This document shows positions 3,665 to 18,214 of a DNA stretch of 64,000 nt, in pieces; positions within the stretch are counted from its first letter, which is position 1; each line of letters opens with the position of its first letter. This DNA is from Gemmatimonadetes bacterium 2013_60CM_65_52 (GTDB lineage: Bacteria > Gemmatimonadota > Gemmatimonadetes > Gemmatimonadales > Gemmatimonadaceae). The DNA lies in NCBI GenBank assembly GCA_002215645.1, contig NGFI01000014.1:248001-312000 (forward strand). Direction: 5' to 3'. The notes beneath the pieces were generated by a model, which made no database searches, was not told the origin of the DNA, and saw only the letters and a program-made list of their open reading frames with translations. The translations under genes were made by a program, and so were the position numbers.

Positions 3665-5506
3665 TCAATTGCCTGCTGACGTTGCTCGCCGCCAATACTC
3701 GAACACCAGCACCATGCTGAGCGTGTCCAGCTCGCAGTACTGTCGAAGAAGGTGTGCCCACGCGTTTCTGCCGTCGGGATCATCCCGTTCGACGCCGTAC
3801 ATCATTGCTTGATATGCCGTCATGGCACCGGTGCCTTCGTGCACGTCCTGCATCACGCCATTGATCTCGATGGCCGGCAACGCCCGATAGGGGTCGGCAT
3901 CCGCGGGAACATCGCGGCCTCCCCAGAGCTTGAACTGCTCTCGCATCGCGGCGTCGGACCGCCAGAGCGCATCCAGAACAACCTTGATCGACGTTCGCCC
4001 TTTCATGCCGGGATGGTAGTAGTCGTTCTGCGCCCATTTGTGCATGTCCACCGCTCGCAATTCCAGCCGCTTCAGCCATGCATGGAGCTCCGGATCCAGC
4101 GCGGCAAATCGCGGCAACTCTTCGGCGGTCTCACGAAGCGTGCTGATTTCATACTGCGACCATATCAGAACACTTCCCGTCTCCCCGACCGCATCACGGA
4201 GCGCGACGGTAAAGGCCCGATTCGGCCACACGTCGTCCGCATTGAGCCACTCGGTGTGAACGGGCTGCGCGCCCGGTTCGGCCACCGTATGACAACTCCA
4301 CTGAAACGACACCTGTCCCCAGGGCCGCATTCCGACATGATACGGCATTGCCAGGCGTGAGCACTCGAAGTCGATAAAATACAATGGATACTCGACGCGC
4401 CCGATGTTGGCCCGAAGAGTCGGCCCGATCCACTCGGTGCCGCTGCGCGTATGCTCGATCTGCCGTCGCTGACGAATTCCAAGCGGACCCCACGTCATGT
4501 CGGCCTTCGCGAGGCAGGCGATGGACACATCGAACAGGGACGCCTTGCCTTCGGCGAAGAGGGTCTCGACCAGCGGCTCACCATCGAGCGTCTTCACCTG
4601 GCCCGCATGGGTCAACTCCAGCACGTGCGGATTCTTGTCCGCCAGGTCACCCCAGCAGTGGTGAAATCCGCTTTCGCCGGCCGCATTTGGAGCGCTGAAC
4701 TCACAGTTCCTGCAATCTGCGCCGATCGTGCGCCAATCCGCTTCAAACGGCTCGTCAAGCATTGACTCGAACGCGGACGCCGCGGCATCCACCTCGTCAC
4801 GGAGAAGGGCCACTTCCGCGGAGACATCCAGGATTGTGAGAAGGTCGAGGCTGTCCAACAGCTCGGGCTCGCCGATGAACCGGGCACCGTATGTTCGTTC
4901 GCCGTTCGGACCGCCGGTGAGCACCCGAAAGAGCGAGGGCACGTTGTCGACCTTCGCCCGCTTGCTCGCATCCACCAGCATCAGGAAGGGCCGAACAACA
5001 ATGCCGGGCAGCATGCGCTCGAGCACGAGTGTCTGATACGTGATGTCTTCGAGTTTTTCTCGCCATTTAGCCGCGACTCCTGGTTTCGTCGCGTTCTGAA
5101 GGAGGCCTCGGCCACCTTTCGCCAGGCTCTGGGCGTGGGCGGCGCCGTCGATTCCCTTGGATTTCACCTCAATGAGATCGATGGCCTCACCGTTCTTCAC
5201 GAGGACGTCGGCGCGCGCTATTCGTCCGCCGTGGAGAATGGTGGCGTCAAAGACCGTCACGTGCTCCGCACGCAGCAGCTCGCGACCGTGCGCGGCGTCT
5301 GCAATGGGATCATGTCCACTCGGCGCTGCAATTCCCTCAGGATACTTTGCGCGCGCAAGGGCATCTACCATGTATCCTCCGTGCGCGAGCAAACGGAGAT
5401 AGGCGTTAGAGCTCTTGTTGTCCGGATACCCTTGTCGCCTGTAGTACAGCTTCGCGCCACAACTGCGTGCCTGCATGTATTCTGATTTGGAGAGCGGGAG
5501 CGTCAT
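3665..5506 (-). CDS. DUF2779 protein: Cas4-like nuclease fused to DEDD exonuclease-like domain
   Basis: A 613-residue protein recognised as DUF2779 by the YFIDFE...RPWGQVSFQWSCH region. Two nuclease-like parts can be read. Residues 1-290 look like a RecB/Cas4-type PD-(D/E)XK domain: D100, then E113-V-K115 (LIEVKSKG). C16 together with C265, C268 and C284 is arranged like the Fe-S cluster cysteines of Cas4 and AddB (one N-terminal, three C-terminal). Residues 370-600 look like an RNase H-fold 3'-5' exonuclease: D379-x-E381, a middle acidic stretch (VDMHKW), and YCELD with D594. The domain reading is inference; the DUF match is recognition from memory. The gene is divergent from the SNF2 gene across about 87 bp containing a perfect dyad (5537-5558), which suggests shared control with the island. 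Confidence 0.85.
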   Translation of the reverse strand: MTLPLSKSEYMQARSCGAKLYYRRQGYPDNKSSNAYLRLLAHGGYMVDALARAKYPEGIAAPSGHDPIADAAHGRELLRAEHVTVFDATILHGGRIARADVLVKNGEAIDLIEVKSKGIDGAAHAQSLAKGGRGLLQNATKPGVAAKWREKLEDITYQTLVLERMLPGIVVRPFLMLVDASKRAKVDNVPSLFRVLTGGPNGERTYGARFIGEPELLDSLDLLTILDVSAEVALLRDEVDAAASAFESMLDEPFEADWRTIGADCRNCEFSAPNAAGESGFHHCWGDLADKNPHVLELTHAGQVKTLDGEPLVETLFAEGKASLFDVSIACLAKADMTWGPLGIRQRRQIEHTRSGTEWIGPTLRANIGRVEYPLYFIDFECSRLAMPYHVGMRPWGQVSFQWSCHTVAEPGAQPVHTEWLNADDVWPNRAFTVALRDAVGETGSVLIWSQYEISTLRETAEELPRFAALDPELHAWLKRLELRAVDMHKWAQNDYYHPGMKGRTSIKVVLDALWRSDAAMREQFKLWGGRDVPADADPYRALPAIEINGVMQDVHEGTGAMTAYQAMMYGVERDDPDGRNAWAHLLRQYCELDTLSMVLVFEYWRRATSAGN

Positions 5507-5536: not shown

Positions 5537-5558
5537 AGCTCACCAGATTCCGTGAGCT
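5537..5558. promoter_or_regulatory. Perfect dyad AGCTCAC-N8-GTGAGCT in divergent island promoter
   Basis: A 7-bp perfect inverted repeat with an 8-bp spacer lies between the DUF2779 start (5506) and the preferred SNF2 start (5594). The position and symmetry fit an operator for a dimeric repressor controlling both directions. No dedicated regulator gene is visible in the island unless the RhuM-family protein, whose N-terminus looks DNA-binding, does this. Function is inferred from position only. Confidence 0.4.
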
Positions 5559-5593
5559 CGCGCCTAAAGTACCAGCTTATGCGATCGGCGACC

Positions 5594-8451
5594 ATGGGAA
5601 TCACGGATCATCAGGCCAAGTATTTCGCGCATGAGCTGACGCGCCGGTTTCCTCCGGATGACGCGTCCCGTCTGGCCGGCGCGCTCGTGGATGCCCAGGT
5701 CGACCTCAACCCGCATCAGGTTGACGCCGCGCTGTTCGCCTTCAGCTCCCCGCTTTCCAAAGGAGTTCTCCTCGCGGATGAAGTGGGGCTCGGCAAGACT
5801 ATCGAAGCGGGTCTCGTGATCTCCCAGCGTTGGGCCGAACGGCGGCGAAAGATTCTGGTCATCACTCCGGCGAATCTTCGCAAGCAGTGGTATCAGGAGC
5901 TCACTGAGAAGTTCTTCGTACCCTGCGTGATCTTCGAGGCACGATCATTCAATCTTGGGCGTAAACAGGGTGCTCAGAACCCATTCTCCAATAGCTCGAT
6001 CGTGATCTGCTCGTACCAGTTCGCACGAAGCAAGGAATCCGATGTTGCCGCCGTGCCGTGGGACCTCGTGGTGATCGACGAAGCCCACCGCCTCCGCAAC
6101 GTCTACAGGACGTCGAACGTCATCGCGAACTCTCTGAAGCGGGCACTCGCTCAGCGGCACAAGATTCTCCTGACGGCCACGCCGCTCCAGAACACTCTTT
6201 TGGAGCTTTACGGGCTGGTCTCGTTCATCGACGAACATGTCTTTGGCGACGTTCGGACGTTTCGCGAGCAATACACGGTGCTCGATGACGACACCGCCTT
6301 CCAATCCCTGAAGCGCCGCATCGCGCCGGTCTGTCATCGCACCCTGCGCCGGCAAGTCGCATCGTACGTGTCATATACGAAACGGTCGGCCATCCTGGAG
6401 CTGTTCACGCCGGACCAGAGCGAAGATGAGCTGTACGAGCTCGTGTCCGAGTACCTGCGCCGCGACAATCTTCAGGCGCTGCCGGGCAGTCAGCGGACGC
6501 TCCTCACGCTGGTGCTCCGAAAGCTCCTCGCGTCGTCGACATTGCGATCGCGGGAGCGCTGGAGACGATGGCCAACCGGCTTCGCGAGAAGCTCCGAGTG
6601 GGCACACCGACGACAGAGCTGGAAGAGACGCTCGAGGCTGACTACGAATCCCTGCCCGAGACGGCCGAAGAGTGGGGCGACGATACGGAGAAGGCCGAAG
6701 CACTGAGCGCGGAAGCGCGCGAAGCCTTGCAGCGCGAAATCGGCGACCTCGATGAATTCGCGGCGTTGGCGGCTCGCATCGAGCATAACGGCAAAGGGAA
6801 GGCACTGCTCGGTGCGCTGGAGAAGGCGTTCCACGCCATTCGCGCGCTTGGCGCCAACGAAAAGGCGATCATCTTCACTGAGTCGCGACGCACGCAGCAA
6901 TACCTGCTGCGCGTGTTGGCCGATGGAGGATTTCCCGCCGAAGACGTCGTCCTGTTCAATGGATCGAACACGGACGAGAGTTCCAAGGCCATTTATGCGG
7001 CGTGGCTTGCTCAACACCGCGGCACGGACCGGGTTACCGGATCCCGCACGGCCGACATGCGGTCAGCGCTCGTTGACTACTTCCGGGACCGCGCGCGGAT
7101 CATGATCGCCACGGAAGCGGGCGCCGAAGGAATAAACCTCCAGTTCTGCTCCCTGGTGGTGAACTACGATCTTCCGTGGAATCCGCAGCGCATCGAGCAG
7201 CGCATCGGGCGCTGTCATCGTTATGGGCAGAAGCATGATGTCGTCGTCGTGAATTTTCTCAACCAGAACAACGCCGCCGACGTGCGGGTCTTCGAGCTTC
7301 TGTCGTCGAAGTTCAAGCTGTTCGAAGGTGTCTTCGGCGTAAGCGACGAGGTACTCGGCGCAGTCGAAGCGGGCGTCGATTTCGAGAAGCGCATTGCGAC
7401 GATCTATCAGACATGCCGCCACCCAACGGAGATCAAGCGCGAGTTCGACACGCTCCAGCTCGAACTGAGCTTCGAGATCAACGAGGCCATGACCTCCACG
7501 CGTCGCAAATTGCTGGAGAACTTTGACGACGAGGTGCGCGACCGGCTGAAGGCGACGAATGAGAAATCAACCGAGGCGCGCAGCCGGCTCGAAGACTTGT
7601 TGATGGCCCTCACGCAGCACGAACTGCGGGACCGGGCTGATTTCACTAGAGCGGGCGGGTTCGATCTCCATGCTCCTCCAACGGAAGACATGGCGACGGG
7701 GCGATATGAGCTTCCGCGTCGTTCCGGGGAAGCGCATCTATATAGAATCGGTCACCCGTTGGCTGAATGGGCGATCACCGCGGCCAAGGAGCGTGTCCTC
7801 GAGCCGGTCTCGGTGGAGTTCACGTACTCGGTGAAGGAAGGCCGGTCCGTGGTGCTCGAGCCGCTGATTGGGCAGTCGGGGTGGTTGAGCGTGTCGCGGT
7901 ACAGTGTGTCGTCGCTCGACCGGGAGGAGGATCACATGATCTTCGCCGCGCAGACAGATTCAGGTGCGCCGGTGGATCCCGCGGCTCCGCTTCGGATGCT
8001 TCGTCTCCCGTCGCGTGTCCTGGGTGCCGCCCGGGTGCCCGTCGACGTCTTCGATGCGCTGGAAACGGTGCGCAAGCGTGCCGAGGCGGATATTCAGTTG
8101 TCCGTCTCAGAGCACAACGCGACATTCCTGGATGAGGAAGCAACCAAGCTCGAAGCGTGGGCAGACGATCAGAAGACGGGACTTGAACGCGAACTGAAAG
8201 ACATGGATCGGCAGATCCGCGAGATCAAGAAGTCGTCAAGTGCAGCCCTGACCCTCGAACAGAAGCTCGCAATTCAGAAGCAGGTCAAGGCAATTGAGGC
8301 AACGCGGAACGAGAAGCGGAAGCGGCTGTTCGATGCGCAGGACGAGGTTGATCGCCGACGGGAGTTCCTGATCAGCGACATCGAGTCGCGACTGGAGCAG
8401 GTTGTGAGCAAGGAGTCTCTTTTTGCATTGCGTTGGACTCTGGTATCATAG
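5594..8451 (+). pseudogene. SNF2-family helicase, frameshifted near 6543 (about 950 aa if intact)
   Basis: Two overlapping frames together make one SNF2/HepA-type helicase. The first part (to 6543) has the Walker A core in LADEVGLGKTIEAG, the DEAH box in VVIDEAHR and motif III in LLTATPLQN. The second part (from 6544) has the C-terminal helicase lobe with EAGAEGINLQF and the arginine-finger motif QRIGRCHRYGQ, then a charged coiled coil. The break is exact: LLASST is in one frame and AIAGALETM in the frame one base away. Family members have LASSTFAIA here, so one base appears missing between 6543 and 6544. No slippery heptamer is present. It is either an assembly or sequencing indel or a real inactivation. 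The start is uncertain: ATG 5594 is preferred, with alternatives at GTG 5552 (inside the dyad) and ATG 5579. It is the first gene of the plus-strand island operon. Confidence 0.82.
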
Positions 8452-8549: not shown

Positions 8550-10178
8550 GTGGCAACGCGGCAGACCCGGCTTGAACTCACGTGGATTGGCAAGGAGACT
8601 CGACCGCTCCTTGAGCCGCGCATTCTAGTGGAAGATCCGGACAAATCCTATCATGCGCCGCACCAAGTTGGATTGCGTACCGTCTTTGACAATCAGTTGA
8701 TTTTTGGGGACAACTTGCTGGCGCTAAAGGCTCTCGAGCAGGAATTTACGGGAAAGATCAAATGCATTTTTATTGATCCTCCGTACAATACTGGAAGTGC
8801 CTTTGAGCATTACGACGATGGTGTCGAACACTCGGTTTGGCTCTCCCTACTCAGGGATCGAATTGAGTTGCTTGGGAAACTCCTTGCATCCGATGGCTCG
8901 TTGTGGATCACCATTGATGACACGGAATGTCATTACCTGAAGGTTCTTTGCGACGAGGTCCTCGGTCGACGGAGTTTTGTGTCATCCATTGCATGGGAAA
9001 AGGATCAAGGAAGGCGTGGAGACACGGATATTTCATCGGCGCATGACCACATCCTGCTTTATGCACGGGATAGAGACATTTGGAGAAGAAGAAGAAACCT
9101 TCTCCCAAGGTCCGAAGCACAAGTGTCTCGATATCGCAATCCTGACAATGACCCTCGCGGACCATGGCTGCAAGGTGACAATGGCACGGCTAAGAGCGGA
9201 TCTGCCGCCGCTCGCTTTCCTGTTACGTTGCCGTCTGGCCGAATTGTAACACCGCCTTCTGGTAATTATTGGCGCTTCTCGGAAAAGAGCTTTCAACGCG
9301 CTCTGGTAGACAATCGCGTCTATTTCGGCGCGAAGGGTGACAGCATGCCCGTCATCAAGCGGTATCTCACGGATGTGCAGGACGGAATCGTACCGCGAAC
9401 TTGGTGGCCAGCATCAGAGGTAGGTTCGAATCAGGATGCGAAGCGCGATCATCTTCGTAAGCTTCTTCCGGAAATTGAGCCTTTTGCCACCCCGAAACCG
9501 GAGGAACTGCTTGAGCGGGTCTTGACGATTTCGACAAGTGCGGGCGATCTCGTTCTCGACTCCTTCGCCGGCTCCGGCACCACAGGCGCCGTCGCACACA
9601 AAATGGGCCGCCGCTGGATCATGATCGAAATGGGCGAACACGCTCATACCCACATCATCCCGCGCATGAAGAAGGTGATCGACGGCGAAGATCCCGGCGG
9701 TATCACCGAATCCGTGAACTGGAAAGGCGGCGGCGGTTTCCGCTACTACCGCCTCGCACCGTCGTTGATCACCACCGACCAGTGGGGCAACCCCGTCATC
9801 AACACGGAATACAACGCCGCCATGCTCGCAGAGGCGCTGTGCAAGCTCGAAGGCTTCACGTATGCGCCCAGCGATTCCGTCTACTGGCAGCAGGGCCGCT
9901 CCACCGAGCGCGATTTCCTCTACGTCACCACCGCCAATCTCGGGCCCGGCCAACTCCAGCAGCTGAGCGACGAGGTCGGGCCGGACCGCACGCTCCTCGT
10001 CCTCTGCACCGCATTCCGGGGCAACACCGATCGCTTCGGGAACCTGACCGTTCGCAAGATCCCCACGCACGTCCTCTCCCGCTGCGAGTGGGGTCGCGAC
10101 GACTATAGCCTAGAAGTCGCCAACCTGCCCCCCGCGCCGCCGCCCGCGGGCCAGCAGGACATGTTCGGCGACGAATGA
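8550..10178 (+). CDS. Site-specific DNA (adenine-N6) methyltransferase, type III Mod-like
   Basis: A 542-residue beta-class methyltransferase. The catalytic motif DPPYN is at residues 76-80, preceded by LIFGDNLLALK, and the AdoMet-binding motif FAGSGTTG is near residue 339. This motif order (catalytic first, AdoMet-binding second) is the beta class used by type III Mod subunits. The region between the two motifs would hold the target recognition domain. The GTG start at 8550 follows a GGAGAA ribosome site. The first half is visibly AT-richer than its neighbours: 8701-8820 is 44% GC by count, while 9721-9780 is 67%. That pattern fits replacement of the N-terminal/specificity half by recombination. 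It should methylate host DNA so the Res-like nuclease downstream does not cut it. It ends 1 bp before the RhuM-family gene. Confidence 0.93.
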   Translation: MATRQTRLELTWIGKETRPLLEPRILVEDPDKSYHAPHQVGLRTVFDNQLIFGDNLLALKALEQEFTGKIKCIFIDPPYNTGSAFEHYDDGVEHSVWLSLLRDRIELLGKLLASDGSLWITIDDTECHYLKVLCDEVLGRRSFVSSIAWEKDQGRRGDTDISSAHDHILLYARDRDIWRRRRNLLPRSEAQVSRYRNPDNDPRGPWLQGDNGTAKSGSAAARFPVTLPSGRIVTPPSGNYWRFSEKSFQRALVDNRVYFGAKGDSMPVIKRYLTDVQDGIVPRTWWPASEVGSNQDAKRDHLRKLLPEIEPFATPKPEELLERVLTISTSAGDLVLDSFAGSGTTGAVAHKMGRRWIMIEMGEHAHTHIIPRMKKVIDGEDPGGITESVNWKGGGGFRYYRLAPSLITTDQWGNPVINTEYNAAMLAEALCKLEGFTYAPSDSVYWQQGRSTERDFLYVTTANLGPGQLQQLSDEVGPDRTLLVLCTAFRGNTDRFGNLTVRKIPTHVLSRCEWGRDDYSLEVANLPPAPPPAGQQDMFGDE

Positions 10179-10179
10179 A

Positions 10180-11229
10180 GTGAGCCAGGACGACGAGGTC
10201 CCGGCGTCGGAGCTGATCCTCTACCAGACCGAGGACCAGCGCACGCGGGTGGAGCTCAGGCTCGCTGGAGGCACCGTTTGGCTCTCCCAGGCGCAGATGG
10301 CCGAGGTGTTCCAGACGTCTGTCGCGAACATAAACATCCACCTGGCAAGCATTTATGACGATGGTGAGCTGGACCCGACCGCAACTATTAAGGATTTCTT
10401 AATAGTTCGAACCGAGGGTGCGCGAGAGGTCCGGCGTGACGTCAAGCACTATGCCCTCGAGGCCATTCTTGCCGTGGGCTACCGGGTAAAGTCCAGGCGA
10501 GGAACCCAGTTCCGGCAATGGGCCACGACCCGTCTGAGTGAGTATCTCGTCAAGGGGTTCACGCTCGACGACGAGCGACTGCGCAATCCACCGGGTCCGG
10601 GCACGCCGGACTATTTCGACGAGCTCCTGGAACGCATCCGGGACATACGCGCCAGCGAGCGCCGCATGTACCTCCGCGTCCGCGACATTCTGGCACTCGC
10701 CAACGACTACGAGCCCTCTGCCGCCGAGACGAAGCGACTCTTCCAGACGGTGCAGAACAAGCTGCATTTCTCTGTCACCGGCCACACTGCCGCGGAGCTG
10801 ATCGCCCAGCGCGCGGATCACTCCGCGCCCAACATGGGCTTGTCGACATGGAAGGGCGACGTCGTCCGGAAGGGAGATGTAGTGATCGCCAAGAACTACC
10901 TGCGCAATGGCGAGATCGACGAGCTGAATCGCATCGTCGTGATGTTCCTCGACTTCGCTGAAGATCAGGCGCGGCGACGCCGGCAGACGTTCATGCAGGA
11001 CTGGGCTACGAAGCTCGACGAATTTCTTCGGTTCAACGAGCGGCGCGTTCTGGACAATCCCGGGAGCATCTCGCACGATGCCGCCGAACGGCTCGCGCGC
11101 GAAGAGTATGCGCGCTTCGAGGAGCGGCGGCGGCTCGAGCGAGAACAGATCGCTGAGCGTGACTATCTGGACGAGGTGAGCGAGGCGGTGCGCTCGTTGC
11201 CGCGGGCCGGCAAGGAGAAGAAGGAGTGA
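10180..11229 (+). CDS. RhuM (virulence RhuM) family protein
   Basis: A 349-residue protein recognised as the RhuM family by the N-terminal segment with TVWLSQAQMAEVFQT (a winged-helix or KilA-N-like DNA-binding look), then TIKDFLIV, HYALEAILAVGYRV and RGTQFRQWAT. The C-terminal half is mostly helical and charged. The GTG start lies one base after the methyltransferase stop, and its own stop overlaps the GTG of the Res-like gene, so it is translationally embedded between modification and restriction genes. RhuM is named from a Salmonella pathogenicity island gene; its biochemical role is unknown. Its place here suggests regulation, control of restriction, or a toxin or effector role. The sequence does not decide between these. 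Confidence 0.88.
   Translation: MSQDDEVPASELILYQTEDQRTRVELRLAGGTVWLSQAQMAEVFQTSVANINIHLASIYDDGELDPTATIKDFLIVRTEGAREVRRDVKHYALEAILAVGYRVKSRRGTQFRQWATTRLSEYLVKGFTLDDERLRNPPGPGTPDYFDELLERIRDIRASERRMYLRVRDILALANDYEPSAAETKRLFQTVQNKLHFSVTGHTAAELIAQRADHSAPNMGLSTWKGDVVRKGDVVIAKNYLRNGEIDELNRIVVMFLDFAEDQARRRRQTFMQDWATKLDEFLRFNERRVLDNPGSISHDAAERLAREEYARFEERRRLEREQIAERDYLDEVSEAVRSLPRAGKEKKE
10383..10407. repeat. AT-rich perfect 10-bp inverted repeat inside the RhuM gene
   Basis: AACTATTAAG and CTTAATAGTT flank a 5-base loop. The sequence is strikingly AT-rich in a GC-rich gene and encodes part of the conserved TIKDFLIV stretch. In mRNA it would form a hairpin with a 10-bp stem. No function is known. Confidence 0.6.
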
Positions 11230-13928
11230 GCCGGCATGTGAATTCGATCGCCGGCCGGTTGAGTCTGCGCGCGCCGCAGCGCGAGGCGCTCGAGATACTC
11301 GATCGCGTCACTGAGATTGTGGCGCCTTCGAAAGCCACGGATGTCGATGCTGCACTTCAGGTCATCCGGAGCGAGTATCCTTCACTCACCGAGTTCGAGC
11401 GGGACTTTCCGTCGCTCTGTTTTGCGCTTGCCGCCGGCGTGGGCAAGACGCGGCTCATGGGTGCGTTCATCACGTATCTGCATCTGGCGCATGGGATCGA
11501 CAACTTTTTTGTGCTCGCGCCCAACCTCACCATCTATAGAAAGCTCATCACCGACTTCACGCCGAATACCCCGAAGTACGTCTTCAAGGGCATCGCGGAG
11601 TTCGCCACGGCTGCGCCCGAGATCATCACTGGCGACGACTACGAGATGCGCGCCTCGACGTTGTTCGACCGGCTCGTCCGCTGCAAGATCAACATCTTCA
11701 ACATCTCGAAGATCACATCGGAAGTGCGCGGCGGACGGGCGCCAAGGATCAAGCGGCTGTCGGAGTACATCGGCGAGAGTTACTTCGAGTACCTCGCGGT
11801 GTTGCCAGACCTCGTGCTGATCATGGACGAGTCGCATCGGTATCGAGCATCGGCGGGTGTGAAGGCGATCAACGAGCTGAAACCGGTGCTCGGCCTCGAG
11901 CTCACGGCGACACCGTTCACGGAGTCATCGCGCGGGCCGGTGCAATTCAAGAACGTCGTGCTCGACTACCCGCTCGGTCGCGCCATGGCCGATGGCTTCG
12001 TGAAGGAGCCGGCGGTGGTGACGCGTCGCAATTTCAACGCGGCGGGGATGAGCGCGGACGAGATCGAGCGGCTCAAGCTGGAAGACGGCATCCGTCTCCA
12101 TGAGAGTGTCAAGGTGGAGTTGGAGACGTATGCCCGACAGATGGACCGGCCGGTGGTGAAGCCGTTCGTGCTCGTGATCGCTCGTGACACGACCCACGCC
12201 GCCGCATTGCTCGCACACATCGAGTCCGAGGCGTTCTTCGAGGGGCGGTATTGCGGCAAGGCGATCCAGGTCGATTCGAGTCGTAGCGGCGCGGAAGAGG
12301 AGGTCATGATCGAGCGACTCCTTCGCGTCGAGCACGCCGACGAGCCGACCGAGATTGTGATTCACGTCAACATGCTGAAGGAAGGTTGGGACGTCACGAA
12401 TCTCTACACGATCATTCCACTGCGGGCCGCGAATGCGCGAACTCTGATCGAGCAATCGATCGGACGCGGGCTGCGGCTTCCGTATGGGGTGCGCACCGGT
12501 GTTCCGGCGGTTGATCGCCTGAACATCGTGGCGCATGATCGATTCCAGGAGATCGTGGACGAAGCGGGCCGGCCGAATTCGCCGATTCGCATGACGAGTG
12601 TCGTGCTCGATGAACGCGAACTGGATGCGCGAACCACAAGCGTGGCGTCGCCGTCGCGGTTGGATGCCGAGCTGGGGCTGGCCCCGGCGGCGGAAGTTGC
12701 GCAATTCGCAACCGATGCCCGCGTCGAAACGACGCCGCTCTTCAGTTCTCCGGAAGAACAGCGCGTCGCACAGATCACCCATTCCGTGATACGGCGCTTG
12801 TCGACCCGGCCCGATCTGCTTCCCGACGTTGCACATCTGGAGCGAGCGGACATTCGCGCCGAAATCGCGCGTATCGTCGAGGCGGAGTACGCGCCGCGCC
12901 AAATCGAGTTGGACATTGCTACCCAGCCGATGGACGTCGTGGCGATCGTGGCCAAGACTGCTGAACGCATCGGCCAACGGATGATTTCGATTCCGCGCAT
13001 TCTCCTGGTGCCAACAGGAGACGTCAGTTCACGTTTCGAGCCGTTTCAGCTGGAGTTGAGCAACCTCCGCTATCCACCGGTATCCGAGGACCTCTGGATC
13101 CGACATCTTCGCACGGGTCAAACAGACGTTCTCGCGCTGAATCCTGGTGGAGTGGAGGAGAAGCGGGCGGAAGACTATGTGGTCAGTGGCCTCGTTGGCT
13201 TCAACGATGTTTCGTACGACGATCACGCCGATTTGCTCTATGATCTGGCCGGGCAGGTCGTGCGTCATCTCGAGTCGTACCTGTCAGACGAGGATGCGCG
13301 AAGGGTCCTTCGCTATCACCAGCGCGAGATCGCGACGTTCGTTCACACACAGATGGTTCCTCACTTTCGCGAAAAGTCGACCGGCGGATATGAGGTTGTG
13401 GTGAGCCGCGGGATGACGGATCTGAAACCGAGCGCGTATACCGCTACGGTTCGCGAAGGCGTCGTGGACTATCGGTTCACGCCGACCGACAAGGGCAATA
13501 TCGCCAAGTACCTGTTCGCGGGCTTTACGCGGTGTTTGTACGACGTTCAGAAGTTCGATTCGGATCCGGAGCGAAAGTTTGCGGTGATCCTCGAGCGCGA
13601 CGCGCTCAAGTGGATGAGGCCGGCGCGCGGCCAGTTCCAGATTTTCTACGGGAGCGGCGGGACCCACAACGAGTACCAGCCCGATTTTGTCGCGGAAACG
13701 GATCGCGAGATCCTGATGGTGGAGGTGAAAGCACGGCGCGATCTGGAAGATCCTGATGTTGTGTCGAAGCAGTCCGTGGCACGGGACTGGTGCGGCCATG
13801 CGACGGCCTATTCCACCGGACACGGCGGCAAGCCGTGGCGGTATGTGATGATTCCGCACGACGCCGTGGTGGACAACGCGGAACTCGGATGGCTGGCTGA
13901 TCGTTTTTCGTTGACGTCAGCCAACTGA
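11226..13928 (+). CDS. Type III Res-like restriction endonuclease (helicase plus PD-(D/E)XK nuclease)
   Basis: A 900-residue DEAD/DEAH-type helicase with a C-terminal nuclease, resembling the BPTD_3080-type restriction endonucleases related to type III Res. It has Walker A GVGKT at 71-75 (in FALAAGVGKTRL), Walker B as DESH at 201-204, motif III LTATPF, motif V in NMLKEGWDVTNL and motif VI in EQSIGRGLRLP. The nuclease site is D820 (QPDF) followed by E833-V-K835 (MVEVKA), a standard PD-(D/E)XK pattern near the C-terminus. Type III Res proteins translocate or slide on DNA with Mod and cut it; here the Mod-like gene is two genes upstream with RhuM between. The GTG start overlaps the RhuM stop (GTGA). 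All motifs are intact, so the enzyme is probably functional. Confidence 0.9.
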   Translation: MSRHVNSIAGRLSLRAPQREALEILDRVTEIVAPSKATDVDAALQVIRSEYPSLTEFERDFPSLCFALAAGVGKTRLMGAFITYLHLAHGIDNFFVLAPNLTIYRKLITDFTPNTPKYVFKGIAEFATAAPEIITGDDYEMRASTLFDRLVRCKINIFNISKITSEVRGGRAPRIKRLSEYIGESYFEYLAVLPDLVLIMDESHRYRASAGVKAINELKPVLGLELTATPFTESSRGPVQFKNVVLDYPLGRAMADGFVKEPAVVTRRNFNAAGMSADEIERLKLEDGIRLHESVKVELETYARQMDRPVVKPFVLVIARDTTHAAALLAHIESEAFFEGRYCGKAIQVDSSRSGAEEEVMIERLLRVEHADEPTEIVIHVNMLKEGWDVTNLYTIIPLRAANARTLIEQSIGRGLRLPYGVRTGVPAVDRLNIVAHDRFQEIVDEAGRPNSPIRMTSVVLDERELDARTTSVASPSRLDAELGLAPAAEVAQFATDARVETTPLFSSPEEQRVAQITHSVIRRLSTRPDLLPDVAHLERADIRAEIARIVEAEYAPRQIELDIATQPMDVVAIVAKTAERIGQRMISIPRILLVPTGDVSSRFEPFQLELSNLRYPPVSEDLWIRHLRTGQTDVLALNPGGVEEKRAEDYVVSGLVGFNDVSYDDHADLLYDLAGQVVRHLESYLSDEDARRVLRYHQREIATFVHTQMVPHFREKSTGGYEVVVSRGMTDLKPSAYTATVREGVVDYRFTPTDKGNIAKYLFAGFTRCLYDVQKFDSDPERKFAVILERDALKWMRPARGQFQIFYGSGGTHNEYQPDFVAETDREILMVEVKARRDLEDPDVVSKQSVARDWCGHATAYSTGHGGKPWRYVMIPHDAVVDNAELGWLADRFSLTSAN

Positions 13929-13935
13929 GGCGTAG

Positions 13936-16050
13936 ATGGCCAGCGGATCCGCGGGAGACCGCCCGTTACGGCCGATCTGGAACGTCGACGAGCGGGCACT
14001 GCAGGTGTTCATGGAACGCATGCAGCAGCCGCCAGATTCCGCGCAATGGTTCGCGCTGCGGCGCGCGGCGGAACGCCTTGCGCTCGTCCCTGGGTTCGAT
14101 TCGCTCATTACGCTGGATTCCAACACGATCAAGGAGCTGCCGCACCAGATCGACGTTGCACTTCGAGTGCTGCGTCAAATGGGCGGCCGCGCAATCCTTG
14201 CCGATGAGGTGGGGCTCGGGAAAACCATCGAAGCCGGTATCGTGCTCAAGGAGCTCGCGGTGCGCGGCCTCGCCCGACGTATTCTGATTCTCACGCCTGC
14301 TGCTCTCGTGGATCAATGGTGCGGCGAGCTCGAGACCAAATTCTTCGAGGTATTCGAGACGCCGACGGATGGTGATGACTGGCGGCGATGCAGCCGTGCG
14401 ATTGTTTCATATCATCGTGCCGTGCGGAAGCAACACCAGGAAGCCATTCTTCGTACGCCGTGGGACCTCGTCATTCTGGACGAAGCACACAAGGTCAAGA
14501 ATCACCTGGCCAGCATTCATCAATTCGTCGCCAAAATACAACGGAACTACATCCTCCTGCTGACGGCGACTCCTCTCCAGAACGACCTCCGCGAGCTGTT
14601 CAACCTCGTGACGCTTCTGCGGCCGGGTCAGCTTGGAACATGGCGCGACTTTTCGCGTCGTTATCTCACGAGTGGTGACCGCCGCAAGGTGACGAATCCG
14701 GCCGCGGTGCGTGAGCTCACGTCGGAGGTCATGATCAGGACTCGGCGATCGAGTGTCGCCCAGTCGATCGATCTTCCTCCTCGGCGCCCCACGCATCCGG
14801 TCGTCGTGTTGACCCCTTCGGAGCGGGATCTGTATGATCGCACCGTGCTGTTCCTTCGCGAGCTCTATGCGAGCGGATTCTACGAGCCGACTCATGATGA
14901 GATAGAGGAGGACGCCGTTCGCAAGCGACGGCGAGGCGGCAAGGGCATCATGACTCTCGAAATCATGCGCCTCTGCCAGCGTCTATGCTCATCGTCTGCC
15001 GCTCTCGCCGATTCGCTGCGGAAGTTCAATGAGGGCGAGCTGATCACGCCGGAGTATCGCGACCGCGCGGTGGCGCTTGCCGATGATGCGGCCGCGATCG
15101 ACTCAAACGCAAAACTGGTAGCGCTGAGGCGCGTTCTGGAGGAACACACGGGACAGGTGATTGTCTTCTCCGAACATCTTCCGACTCTGGCGCTGCTCGA
15201 CCGCCATGTCCGTGCCAGTGGCCGTCGGCCGATTCTGTATCAGGGAGGCTTGTCACGCGTCGAGCGGGCGCGCCGCCTTCGGCTCTTCAAGGAGGCTACC
15301 GATGGCGTATTTATCGCAACGCGTGCCGGCACCGAGGGGCTGAATCTCCAATTCTGTAACGTGCTGGTGAACTACGAGCTACCGTGGAACCCGATGGTCG
15401 TCGAGCAGAGAATTGGACGCATCCATCGTATCGGGCAGACCCGGGAAGCGCACATCATCAACTTTGCCGCGCGCGGCACGATCGAAGCGCACATCCTCAC
15501 GCTACTCGATCAGAAGATCCGCCTGTTCGAGCTCGTCGTCGGGGAACTCGACGTCATTCTTGGCGATTTTGGCGGCGCCGAGACGATGGAGCAGCGAATC
15601 ACCGATGAGTTCCTGCGGGCGAAGACCGAGGGCGAATTCGAGAAGGCCATCGACAGCATTGGTGACGAGATCAGCCGAAGCCGCAAAGCGGGCCTGGAGC
15701 AGGAGCGCCTCAACGCCGACTTGAGCGGCGACGACAACGCGATGCGGCTCGAGCGCGACTTCGTCAATCTCGAAATTCCAGCGCGCGTACGATTGGGGCT
15801 TGGGACGAAACACCTGAAGATGGTCCTGGGACTGGACGCGCGCCGAGAAATGCTACTCCTTCAAGTTCACGAGATCATGGAAGCGCTCGAACAGGCCGAT
15901 GTGCGGGATGGTGTGCGCTCGCCCGACTATGGACCGCTCGTCGATATCACTGGCGTGACGCGACGTGGACGGGCAGTCTACCTCACTGTTCAGGCGGACC
16001 GATTGCCGATAATGCTCGTGAAGATCGACGCGGACCCGATTGTGGCGTGA
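13936..16050 (+). CDS. Second SNF2/HepA-type helicase
   Basis: A 704-residue SNF2-family ATPase. It has Walker A GLGKT at 93-97 (ILADEVGLGKTIEAG), DEAH at 182-185, motif III in LLTATPLQND, the C-terminal lobe with ATRAGTEGLNLQF, and the arginine-finger motif QRIGRIHRIGQ around R495. It is shorter than the first SNF2 protein and diverged from it, and it lacks the long C-terminal coiled coil, so it is a distinct paralogue. It starts 7 bp after the Res-like stop; the next gene starts 10 bp after its stop. SNF2 proteins of this type occur in DISARM (DrmD) and in type III-linked defence clusters, but no other DISARM gene is here. It probably works with the adjacent Cys/His-rich protein, to which it is closely linked. 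Confidence 0.9.
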   Translation: MASGSAGDRPLRPIWNVDERALQVFMERMQQPPDSAQWFALRRAAERLALVPGFDSLITLDSNTIKELPHQIDVALRVLRQMGGRAILADEVGLGKTIEAGIVLKELAVRGLARRILILTPAALVDQWCGELETKFFEVFETPTDGDDWRRCSRAIVSYHRAVRKQHQEAILRTPWDLVILDEAHKVKNHLASIHQFVAKIQRNYILLLTATPLQNDLRELFNLVTLLRPGQLGTWRDFSRRYLTSGDRRKVTNPAAVRELTSEVMIRTRRSSVAQSIDLPPRRPTHPVVVLTPSERDLYDRTVLFLRELYASGFYEPTHDEIEEDAVRKRRRGGKGIMTLEIMRLCQRLCSSSAALADSLRKFNEGELITPEYRDRAVALADDAAAIDSNAKLVALRRVLEEHTGQVIVFSEHLPTLALLDRHVRASGRRPILYQGGLSRVERARRLRLFKEATDGVFIATRAGTEGLNLQFCNVLVNYELPWNPMVVEQRIGRIHRIGQTREAHIINFAARGTIEAHILTLLDQKIRLFELVVGELDVILGDFGGAETMEQRITDEFLRAKTEGEFEKAIDSIGDEISRSRKAGLEQERLNADLSGDDNAMRLERDFVNLEIPARVRLGLGTKHLKMVLGLDARREMLLLQVHEIMEALEQADVRDGVRSPDYGPLVDITGVTRRGRAVYLTVQADRLPIMLVKIDADPIVA

Positions 16051-16060
16051 GCAACGCGTC

Positions 16061-18214
16061 ATGAGCGAGCAGCCGGAGATCGCCCGCACAGAGGAACACG
16101 AACGTGTCGCAGATGAACACGTTCGCCGCCTCCTCGACGGCTATGTGTCGCTGTCCGGCGCCGTGATGACGGAGCTTGCTCCCAATCTTCATCAGCTGGT
16201 AATCCCCGCGAGTGACCGGCGGGCATTCGGCCGCCGGTCGGTGGCTCGCATCGCCTTCTCGGTTGAAGCGATGCAGGAAGATGAACACGCTGAGATGGCG
16301 ATCATCGGAAGTCCATTTGCGGCACAGTTGATCGAGGCCGTACGTCGCCGCGGCGATCGGCACTTCGTGGGACGTGTCACGCCAACAGATCGCGACCTGT
16401 CGAGCGCACCGCCCGCCCCCGTGCCGATCCGGAACGGGCAGGTTGCGGCTTCGAGTGCTTCGGTCAGACGGCATCGCGTCGGGTCCCTAATCGCGCGGGT
16501 CGTGGTCCGCGCAGGTGCTGATGTACGAGAGCACCTTGCTGAGAGCGCGCTCTTCGACCTCAGCAGCGGAGCCCTCCTCACTGATGACGTGGCTCGCGCG
16601 TGCGTAAGCGCTGGCGATGCCTCGGCCCTGGCGAACCGCTCTGATGTCTGGGAATCGCTAGCCGTTTCGGGTGTGTTGCCGATGACTGACATGGTGCCTC
16701 GAATGCTGGACAGTCTGGAAGCAAGCCTCCGTCCGGAGATCGAGAAGCTCGAGACGGAGTCCCAGCGAGCGCTGACTCACGAATTGGGGCGCATCGAGCG
16801 TTACTATCGATCGCTGCTGGATGATCTTGGAGGCCGAGGGAGCGAGATCACGACCAAGGACGCTCGCGCGGCATACCATGCGGAACATTCCAGACGGAAG
16901 CGCGAAGAAACGGATCGTCACGAGGTCCGCGCGATAGTTCATCCGGTTCAGTTGCAGGAATTTGAGCTTCTCGTTCAGAGGGCGGAGTGGGCAATCGAAG
17001 GGGGCACGGGCAGGCGCGGTACTCTCGTGGCCCAGCGCTCACTCGCTGGTAACGGTGCATGGGTGCTGCGTTGCCCAACGTGCTCCGGGCCTCTGCGCGA
17101 AGGCGTCATTTGCCGAAGCGACCATCTCGCGTGCGATCTGTGCTCACTCGACTGCTCCGTGTGCCGCGATAGCTTTTGTCGCGGTCATGGTCTGGCAGCC
17201 TGTCACATCGACGCGCTCCCGGTGTGCTCGGAGCACTCGAGAACCTGCGTCTCCTGCCATCGTGCGCACTGCAGCGCGCACGATGGATTGTGTGATGAGT
17301 CGGGACATGCGGCGTGTGCGGCATGTCTTGCCGACTGTGCGTTTTGCGGGCGCATCGTATGTGACCGCCACGCCACGCTCAGTGATCCAAGTGCACCGAA
17401 GGGTGCGCGACGACTGTGCTCGAATTGCGTTCGCGCATGCGAGGGTGGCGTCGGAGAAGTCGTCGGGCCGGACGAAGTCACCGGGTGTGCCAGCTGCGAG
17501 CATGTCGTGTGTGAACGGCATCAAGCCCGCTGCGATGTCGACAAGCGCATCCACTGTTCCAAGCATCTCAGGCGCACCGACCGTTCACGCCGACTCGTCT
17601 GCGAGAAGGATCGGGCGCGGTGCGCACATGAGCCGAATGCGATTGTTGCAGTGGACGAAGTTGTGACGTGTGCGACCTGTTCAACCATCACGTGCTCCAC
17701 GCACTCAGCAATCTGTGTCGTGGACGGACTTACCCATTGTCTGACCCATCTAGCGCCCGTGAAAGATCGGCCGCGTGCGAGCGCATGTGTTCGGCATCAG
17801 AGCCGTTGTCACATCGATGATGTAGTTTACACGAGCAGCGGTACCGCGTCGTGTCCTTGCTGTGGGAAGGCAACCTGTGTTGATCACCGACGTGAGTGCG
17901 ACAACTGCGGACGTGCGGTCTGCACAAAGGACTATTCGTCGGGCGCAACGAGAGCGTGCGCCACGTGTCGCAGGCTTGTGGAAGTGACCGACGTGCCGGA
18001 TGATATTCTGGAGGCAGCGATGCTTGCACGTGATGGTGATTCGTCTCGCCCCAAGCGGTGGCGAATGACGAGGGATTCGAAGCACCGGATTGTCGAGTTG
18101 GATCTGGGTTGGACCAGGCGGCTCGTCGTATCCGTGCCGCATGCCACTGTGTCGCCGGACACGGTCGTGTCCCATTCCATATTGGGAAGAAGGATCCTTC
18201 GTCCGTCGACTTAG
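16061..18214 (+). CDS. Unrecognised 717-aa protein with tandem Cys/His zinc modules
   Basis: I do not recognise a family. Residues 1-330 are soluble and mostly helical with a charged helix region near 200-300. Residues 338-636 contain 45 cysteines and many histidines. A repeated pattern C-x2-C-x4-C-x2-H appears seven times (for example CVSCHRAHCSAH, CAFCGRIVCDRH, CASCEHVVCERH, CATCSTITCSTH; the last copy ends in Asp). Two modules share the exact 27-residue spacing C-x2-C-x4-C-x2-H-x3-C-x7-C-x2-H; others differ by one residue or in one ligand. This looks like a chain of cross-brace-like zinc modules, as in B-box or RING-type folds, probably for binding protein or nucleic acid. About 80 residues follow the zinc region. 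The ATG at 16061 is preferred over GTG 16040, which lies inside the preceding gene. It is the last gene of the island operon. Confidence 0.8.
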   Translation: MSEQPEIARTEEHERVADEHVRRLLDGYVSLSGAVMTELAPNLHQLVIPASDRRAFGRRSVARIAFSVEAMQEDEHAEMAIIGSPFAAQLIEAVRRRGDRHFVGRVTPTDRDLSSAPPAPVPIRNGQVAASSASVRRHRVGSLIARVVVRAGADVREHLAESALFDLSSGALLTDDVARACVSAGDASALANRSDVWESLAVSGVLPMTDMVPRMLDSLEASLRPEIEKLETESQRALTHELGRIERYYRSLLDDLGGRGSEITTKDARAAYHAEHSRRKREETDRHEVRAIVHPVQLQEFELLVQRAEWAIEGGTGRRGTLVAQRSLAGNGAWVLRCPTCSGPLREGVICRSDHLACDLCSLDCSVCRDSFCRGHGLAACHIDALPVCSEHSRTCVSCHRAHCSAHDGLCDESGHAACAACLADCAFCGRIVCDRHATLSDPSAPKGARRLCSNCVRACEGGVGEVVGPDEVTGCASCEHVVCERHQARCDVDKRIHCSKHLRRTDRSRRLVCEKDRARCAHEPNAIVAVDEVVTCATCSTITCSTHSAICVVDGLTHCLTHLAPVKDRPRASACVRHQSRCHIDDVVYTSSGTASCPCCGKATCVDHRRECDNCGRAVCTKDYSSGATRACATCRRLVEVTDVPDDILEAAMLARDGDSSRPKRWRMTRDSKHRIVELDLGWTRRLVVSVPHATVSPDTVVSHSILGRRILRPST

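Follow-up and report, generated by a model that had tools for sequence, protein, structure and literature searches.

The protein encoded at positions 16061..18214 (+) of the window, the 64,000-nucleotide stretch of DNA that was analysed, is best read, with moderate confidence, as the rear subunit of a two-gene SNF2 motor of the RapA/BrxHII type that probably serves as an auxiliary anti-phage defence motor. Here, the upstream SNF2 gene would supply the ATPase, while this zinc-array subunit (P0001, 717 aa) would supply a RapA-like C-terminal module, made up of a degenerate alpha/beta domain and a beta-sheet domain with a helical hairpin. We infer that the two proteins form a complex, in which the N-terminal module of P0001 most likely docks in trans onto the SNF2 motor, as the module of RapA does in cis. 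The neutral, expandable zinc array would then form an extended docking arm, by which the motor is offered to a third partner or an invader's nucleoprotein.

The SNF2 ATPase motor subunit (704 aa; 13936..16050, +) is the near-obligate neighbour of the zinc-array gene. Its stop codon ends at 16050 and the ATG of the zinc-array gene lies at 16061, in agreement with the 10-bp distance given in the original prediction. The product matches Pfam SNF2-rel_dom and Helicase_C, retains intact core motifs with GLGKT and DEAH present, and aligns to RapA 152-634 with 99.9% probability. Tudor_RapA gave no Pfam match in this product, and the RapA alignment starts at residue 152. Against the NCBIfam RapA model the protein scores 180 bits, which does not reach the cut-off of 576, and its best NCBIfam/PADLOC score, 233.7 bits for DrmD, is far below the cut-off of 950.

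P0001 had been described as an unrecognised protein, and it remains one at the level of sequence families: searches of Pfam, NCBIfam and PADLOC returned no family match, those of PDB sequences gave chance matches only, and a scan of all 23 homologues stayed at chance level. The N-terminal half, left out of the original prediction together with the type III restriction-modification (R-M) operon described below, was suspected from sequence motifs to resemble the C-terminal part of RapA before any fold search. An AlphaFold2 model built with the 23 homologues (mean pLDDT 83.8) resolves this half into an alpha/beta domain (residues 19-105; 16115..16375, +), placed by model secondary structure, VIA-align and profiles in one register as the first post-helicase domain of RapA, and a beta-sheet domain (residues 126-330; 16436..17050, +) with an inserted long two-helix hairpin (208-286), placed by the model, VIA-align and a hairpin profile. 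In RapA, the first of these has been termed an inactive REase-like fold, and the beta-sheet domain with its inserted helical hairpin belongs to the C-terminal topology of RapA/BrxHII (PMC12839542); the modelled secondary structure of residues 19-330 fits this topology. VIA-align places E. coli RapA at ranks 1, 2, 3 and 5 (Z = 7.3, 7.0, 6.7 and 6.5), superposing residues ~7-306 of the model on RapA ~698-966 with as many as 234 residues aligned. The non-RapA rows at comparable Z span just 56-71 residues, in coiled-coil or small-domain stretches. These RapA matches are moderate (Z below 8, rmsd 6-9 Å), and RapA is absent among the best 50 Foldseek matches listed for the model. Profiles of the Gemmatimonadota N-domain, of its haloarchaeal counterpart and of a RapA_C alignment built here were then compared: the Gemmatimonadota profile (A5) matches the haloarchaeal one (A7) with E = 5.5e-5, A7 matches RapA_C with E = 5.5e-4, a further profile (A9) does so with E = 0.009, and the helical hairpin of P0001 matches RapA 884-924 with E = 0.024. 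All these comparisons share one register; their probabilities are low to moderate overall, and low (4-30%) for RapA_C.

The model gives a moderate likeness between the first 330 residues of P0001 and the C-terminal part of RapA. In essence, a C-terminal module characteristic of the RapA family is found in the adjacent gene, as a separate chain, on moderate evidence (Z 7.3). Because the SNF2 protein covers RapA 152-634 and the zinc-array subunit covers ~698-966, the two genes account for complementary parts of RapA, and together they quite probably represent a RapA/BrxHII-type helicase cut in two, with the array added to its rear. B. subtilis YqhG, the partner of YqhH, was considered as a parallel split partner; its family was absent from the relatives searched, and it remains a lead.

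The pairing of the two genes is close to strict. In a sample of 395 Gemmatimonadota genomes, 26 have the SNF2 orthologue and 26 the zinc-array gene, with 24 having both. The pair is adjacent at 25 of the 27 zinc-array loci; of the remaining two, one is truncated by the end of its contig and the other is an orphan. The exceptions to pairing are contig ends (G275, G163 and G378) and the orphan in G020. This orphan lacks both the SNF2 partner and the first 40 residues, sits beside MacB/FtsX genes, and looks like a deletion remnant. One contig carries two SNF2/zinc-array pairs ~25 kb apart (G188, contig 11). Weak N-domain matches in G087, G306 and G061 were wrong-frame or short and were set aside as chance, and no relatives were found in phage records or IMG/VR.

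In the window, the pair stands at the end of an apparent operon spanning 8550-18214, in which genes assigned by family match to a type III modification methyltransferase (Mod; 8550..10178, +), a RhuM-family protein (10180..11229, +) and a type III restriction subunit (Res; 11226..13928, +) are followed on the same strand by the SNF2 and zinc-array genes, with successive gaps of +1, -4, +7 and +10 bp. Upstream lies a DrmD-like SNF2 helicase, also assigned by family match, in two overlapping frames (5552..8451, +). The same six genes occur in the same order, at 53-79% identity, in a genome from another genus of the same family (G072), where Mod is 79%, RhuM 72% and Res, in the same position, 68% identical. 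This conserved operon weakens the idea that the window neighbours are pure coincidence. Other genomes of the family contain related type III systems that come without the pair, which is thus an add-on to them. The window copy of the DrmD-like gene has a frame change near 6541-6544, which may reflect either true inactivation or a fault in the assembly; its G072 counterpart is a single intact frame of 951 aa. A DUF2779 gene (3665-5506, -) adjoins the operon, and one like it, 24% identical over 262 aa, lies near the pair in another locus (L036); the region analysed in G072 contained none. Elsewhere in Gemmatimonadota, most genomes have the pair by itself, surrounded by unrelated chromosomal genes, and 52 neighbours of Gemmatimonadota pairs gave only scattered PADLOC matches. 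When a third conserved neighbour was sought at these loci, only a subtilase-family gene recurred, near the pair at 8 of 26 loci and at varying distance and side.

The same arrangement extends well beyond Gemmatimonadota. Using tblastn, the order of SNF2 gene followed by partner gene was found on haloarchaeal plasmids. It recurs on cyanobacterial and alphaproteobacterial plasmids, where the putative partners were assigned by gene order and size; together with the adjacency in Gemmatimonadota, this pairing in haloarchaea and other phyla bears out the earlier guess that the SNF2 protein is the partner of P0001. The haloarchaeal partners contain 5 (Halocatena), 30 (Haloferax) and 24 (Halorhabdus) strict zinc units, and in all three genera a gene for an Mrr-type nuclease lies 3′ of the pair. 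In other haloarchaea, the SNF2 protein is 51-58% identical to that of Halocatena and its gene is followed by one for a partner of ~390 residues with a single terminal zinc ribbon; several of these single-ribbon pairs adjoin genes for a DUF1156 methyltransferase and a DUF499 ATPase. Haloarchaeal pairs as a whole neighbour DUF1156 methyltransferase, DUF499 ATPase, PD-(D/E)XK or Mrr genes. No array is present in the partners from Nostoc and Oscillatoria, and that of Rhodovastum has a single terminal C-x2-C-x4-C-x2-C-type unit. Across the pair types, partners carry 0 or 1 zinc unit, or 5-30 units with a length of 15 residues. The array proteins of Gemmatimonadota and haloarchaea also end alike, with a C-x2-C followed by a small beta domain (hhalign E = 7e-4), which in the P0001 model occupies residues 640-717 (17978..18211, +). 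From these sequences, the family reads as a motor-plus-partner pair whose partner may have grown a zinc arm to differing lengths. At haloarchaeal DUF1156/DUF499 BREX-related loci (L094-L100), the SNF2 helicase and the RapA-like module are encoded by adjacent, often overlapping genes, the second of which is annotated merely as a "hypothetical protein". The 1245-aa zinc-array gene of Haloferax lucentense (L071:3994-7731) is absent from the gene table, the record having short antisense "hypothetical proteins" instead. With operon context pointing to it in two unrelated settings, defence is the likely role of the pair.

An unlikely alternative is that the pair is a split RapA doing the job of RapA itself, recycling or remodelling RNA polymerase, with the zinc arm binding a transcription component. 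The complementary coverage of RapA by the two genes would suit such a role, as would the lack of defence neighbours around most chromosomal copies. RapA, however, contacts RNA polymerase through its N-terminal tandem Tudor domains, and it is this region that is missing from the SNF2 gene, whose product scores higher with DrmD and far below the RapA cut-off. Sporadic presence in 26 of 395 genomes is also unlike a housekeeping factor, and the archaeal copies reside on plasmids with R-M-type genes.

The zinc-module array of P0001 (residues 338-636; 17072..17968, +) contains 45 Cys and 20 His. The motif C-x2-C-x4-C-x2-[HD] occurs in seven units, at residues 365, 396, 426, 476, 537, 598 and 613, and the long form C-x2-C-x4-C-x2-H-x3-C-x7-C-x2-H is exact at 476 and 537, two modules separated by 61 residues; the Cys count, the seven units and the two exact modules of the original prediction were all correct on recounting. 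Across 20,000 shuffles of the 299 array residues, the number of units averaged 0.13 and peaked at 4, never reaching 7, and no shuffle produced two long modules. Beneath the motif lies a 15-residue period, in which C-x2-[C/H/D] pairs (C-x2-C, C-x2-H and C-x2-D in this family) are alternately 8 and 7 apart. When the 23 homologues were aligned, the ligand Cys and His outside the unit at 537-597 proved invariant or nearly so, which argues that the array spacing is under selection, and many non-ligand residues (e.g. 445-473) are invariant as well. The exception is a 61-residue variable repeat unit (residues ~537-597; 17669..17851, +), which is present in 12 of the 23 homologues and cleanly gone as a block in the other 11. 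Conserved positions comprise ~44 Cys, 17 His and several Asp/Glu at pair positions, and from these counts roughly 16 zinc sites per chain are predicted. The tandem Cys/His modules originally proposed thus form, judged by sequence, a genuine array of invariant spacing, and its predicted zinc binding follows from the invariant C-x2-C/H pairs only.

Modelled alone, the array forms a regular strand-turn-strand repeat with a pLDDT of 91.4. Its best structural matches in the PDB are FYVE and Rab-effector zinc fingers, LIM and PHD domains, all with Z < 5 and covering 40-118 residues, and Foldseek alone returned no significant PDB fold for either the full model or the array. The earlier description of the modules as cross-brace-like therefore stands in that they resemble cross-brace zinc folds, whereas the RING and B-box domains named there are not the best matches (FYVE/Rab-effector/LIM/PHD are, at Z < 5). 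Predicted giant-virus and phage protein structures (BFVD) match the array better, with E down to 5e-9 and low TM-scores; these include uncharacterised proteins of Edafosvirus, Hyperionvirus and tailed phages with predicted zinc-module arrays like that of P0001. Given these matches between models, long arrays of small zinc modules appear not to be unique to the P0001 family.

Long zinc arrays often bind nucleic acids, and the array could accordingly be read as a sensor that recognizes a DNA feature of the invader and switches the motor on, a reading that the DNA-restriction gene context would also suit. Against this, the array is neutral in charge (36 basic and 35 acidic residues in P0001, with net charges of -7 to +1 in other homologues), its structural matches are mainly protein- or lipid-binding cross-brace folds, and relatives of one pair type carry anywhere from 0 to 30 units, making a nucleic-acid sensor quite unlikely; the neutral charge weakly favours protein docking over nucleic-acid binding. 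Another reading, a very unlikely one, is that the two genes form an independent module lying only incidentally next to type III R-M, and that the array chiefly stores metal or buffers redox. While the very high Cys content and the varied neighbours in most genomes fit such a module, the full operon is retained in two genera, the array gene is nearly always tied to an SNF2 motor, and invariance of ligand spacing and of non-ligand residues such as 445-473 would be needless for a metal store. Finally, the suggestion that P0001 is a RING/B-box-like ubiquitin ligase or ubiquitin-like conjugation factor, an option in the original prediction, is very improbable in spite of the cross-brace spacing and weak RING/RBR rows in fold searches, as family scans found no RING or B-box match for P0001 or its homologues, neighbourhood scans found no E1, E2, ubiquitin-like or JAB gene, and growth or loss of whole arrays is ill-suited to a single catalytic RING.

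Taken further, the preferred reading of a split defence motor would suggest a cross-domain defence module not recognised before, in which a zinc arm of 0 to ~30 units on a split RapA/BrxHII-type motor is a length-tunable adaptor that plugs the motor into type III R-M, BREX-related and Mrr systems; this we put forward tentatively, as a possibility short of even odds. SNF2 motors are central to BREX type 3, BR and DISARM, but little is understood of the way they connect to sensors and nucleases. A motor apparently split by nature, whose partner comes with no zinc modules, one or many, lends itself directly to experiments in which subunits are swapped and the arm is shortened. It also brings unannotated "hypothetical proteins" from haloarchaea, cyanobacteria and Gemmatimonadota together as a single two-gene family.

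Among known systems, DISARM supplies the best-scoring family of the SNF2 gene in DrmD, yet at a score far below the 950-bit cut-off; DrmA, DrmB and DrmC were not seen in the window, and DrmA and DrmB were never the best family of the window genes tested. BrxHII and the BREX-related (BR) helicases (PMC12839542) share the post-helicase domain order of the pair, and several haloarchaeal pairs adjoin DUF1156 methyltransferase and DUF499 ATPase genes of BR type. The window pair differs in that its helicase is divided between two genes, a split that a text search of PMC12839542 did not turn up, and in that DUF499 and DUF1156 genes are absent around it, with no PglZ gene in the window. E. coli RapA, the SNF2 ATPase of RNA polymerase recycling (PDB 8spg, 8so8, 8t0l and 6bog), has the same succession of SNF2 motor, alpha/beta domain and long-helix-bearing beta-sheet domain, whereas the pair is encoded by two genes, lacks the N-terminal Tudor pair, and carries a zinc array and end domain on its rear subunit. 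The array, in turn, resembles FYVE, Rab-effector, LIM and PHD folds in its cross-brace geometry, which is locally C-x2-C-x4-C-x2-[C/H] (Z 3-4.8). Such folds occur singly or in twos, whereas the array of this family is continuous, with up to 30 units in a 15-residue period.
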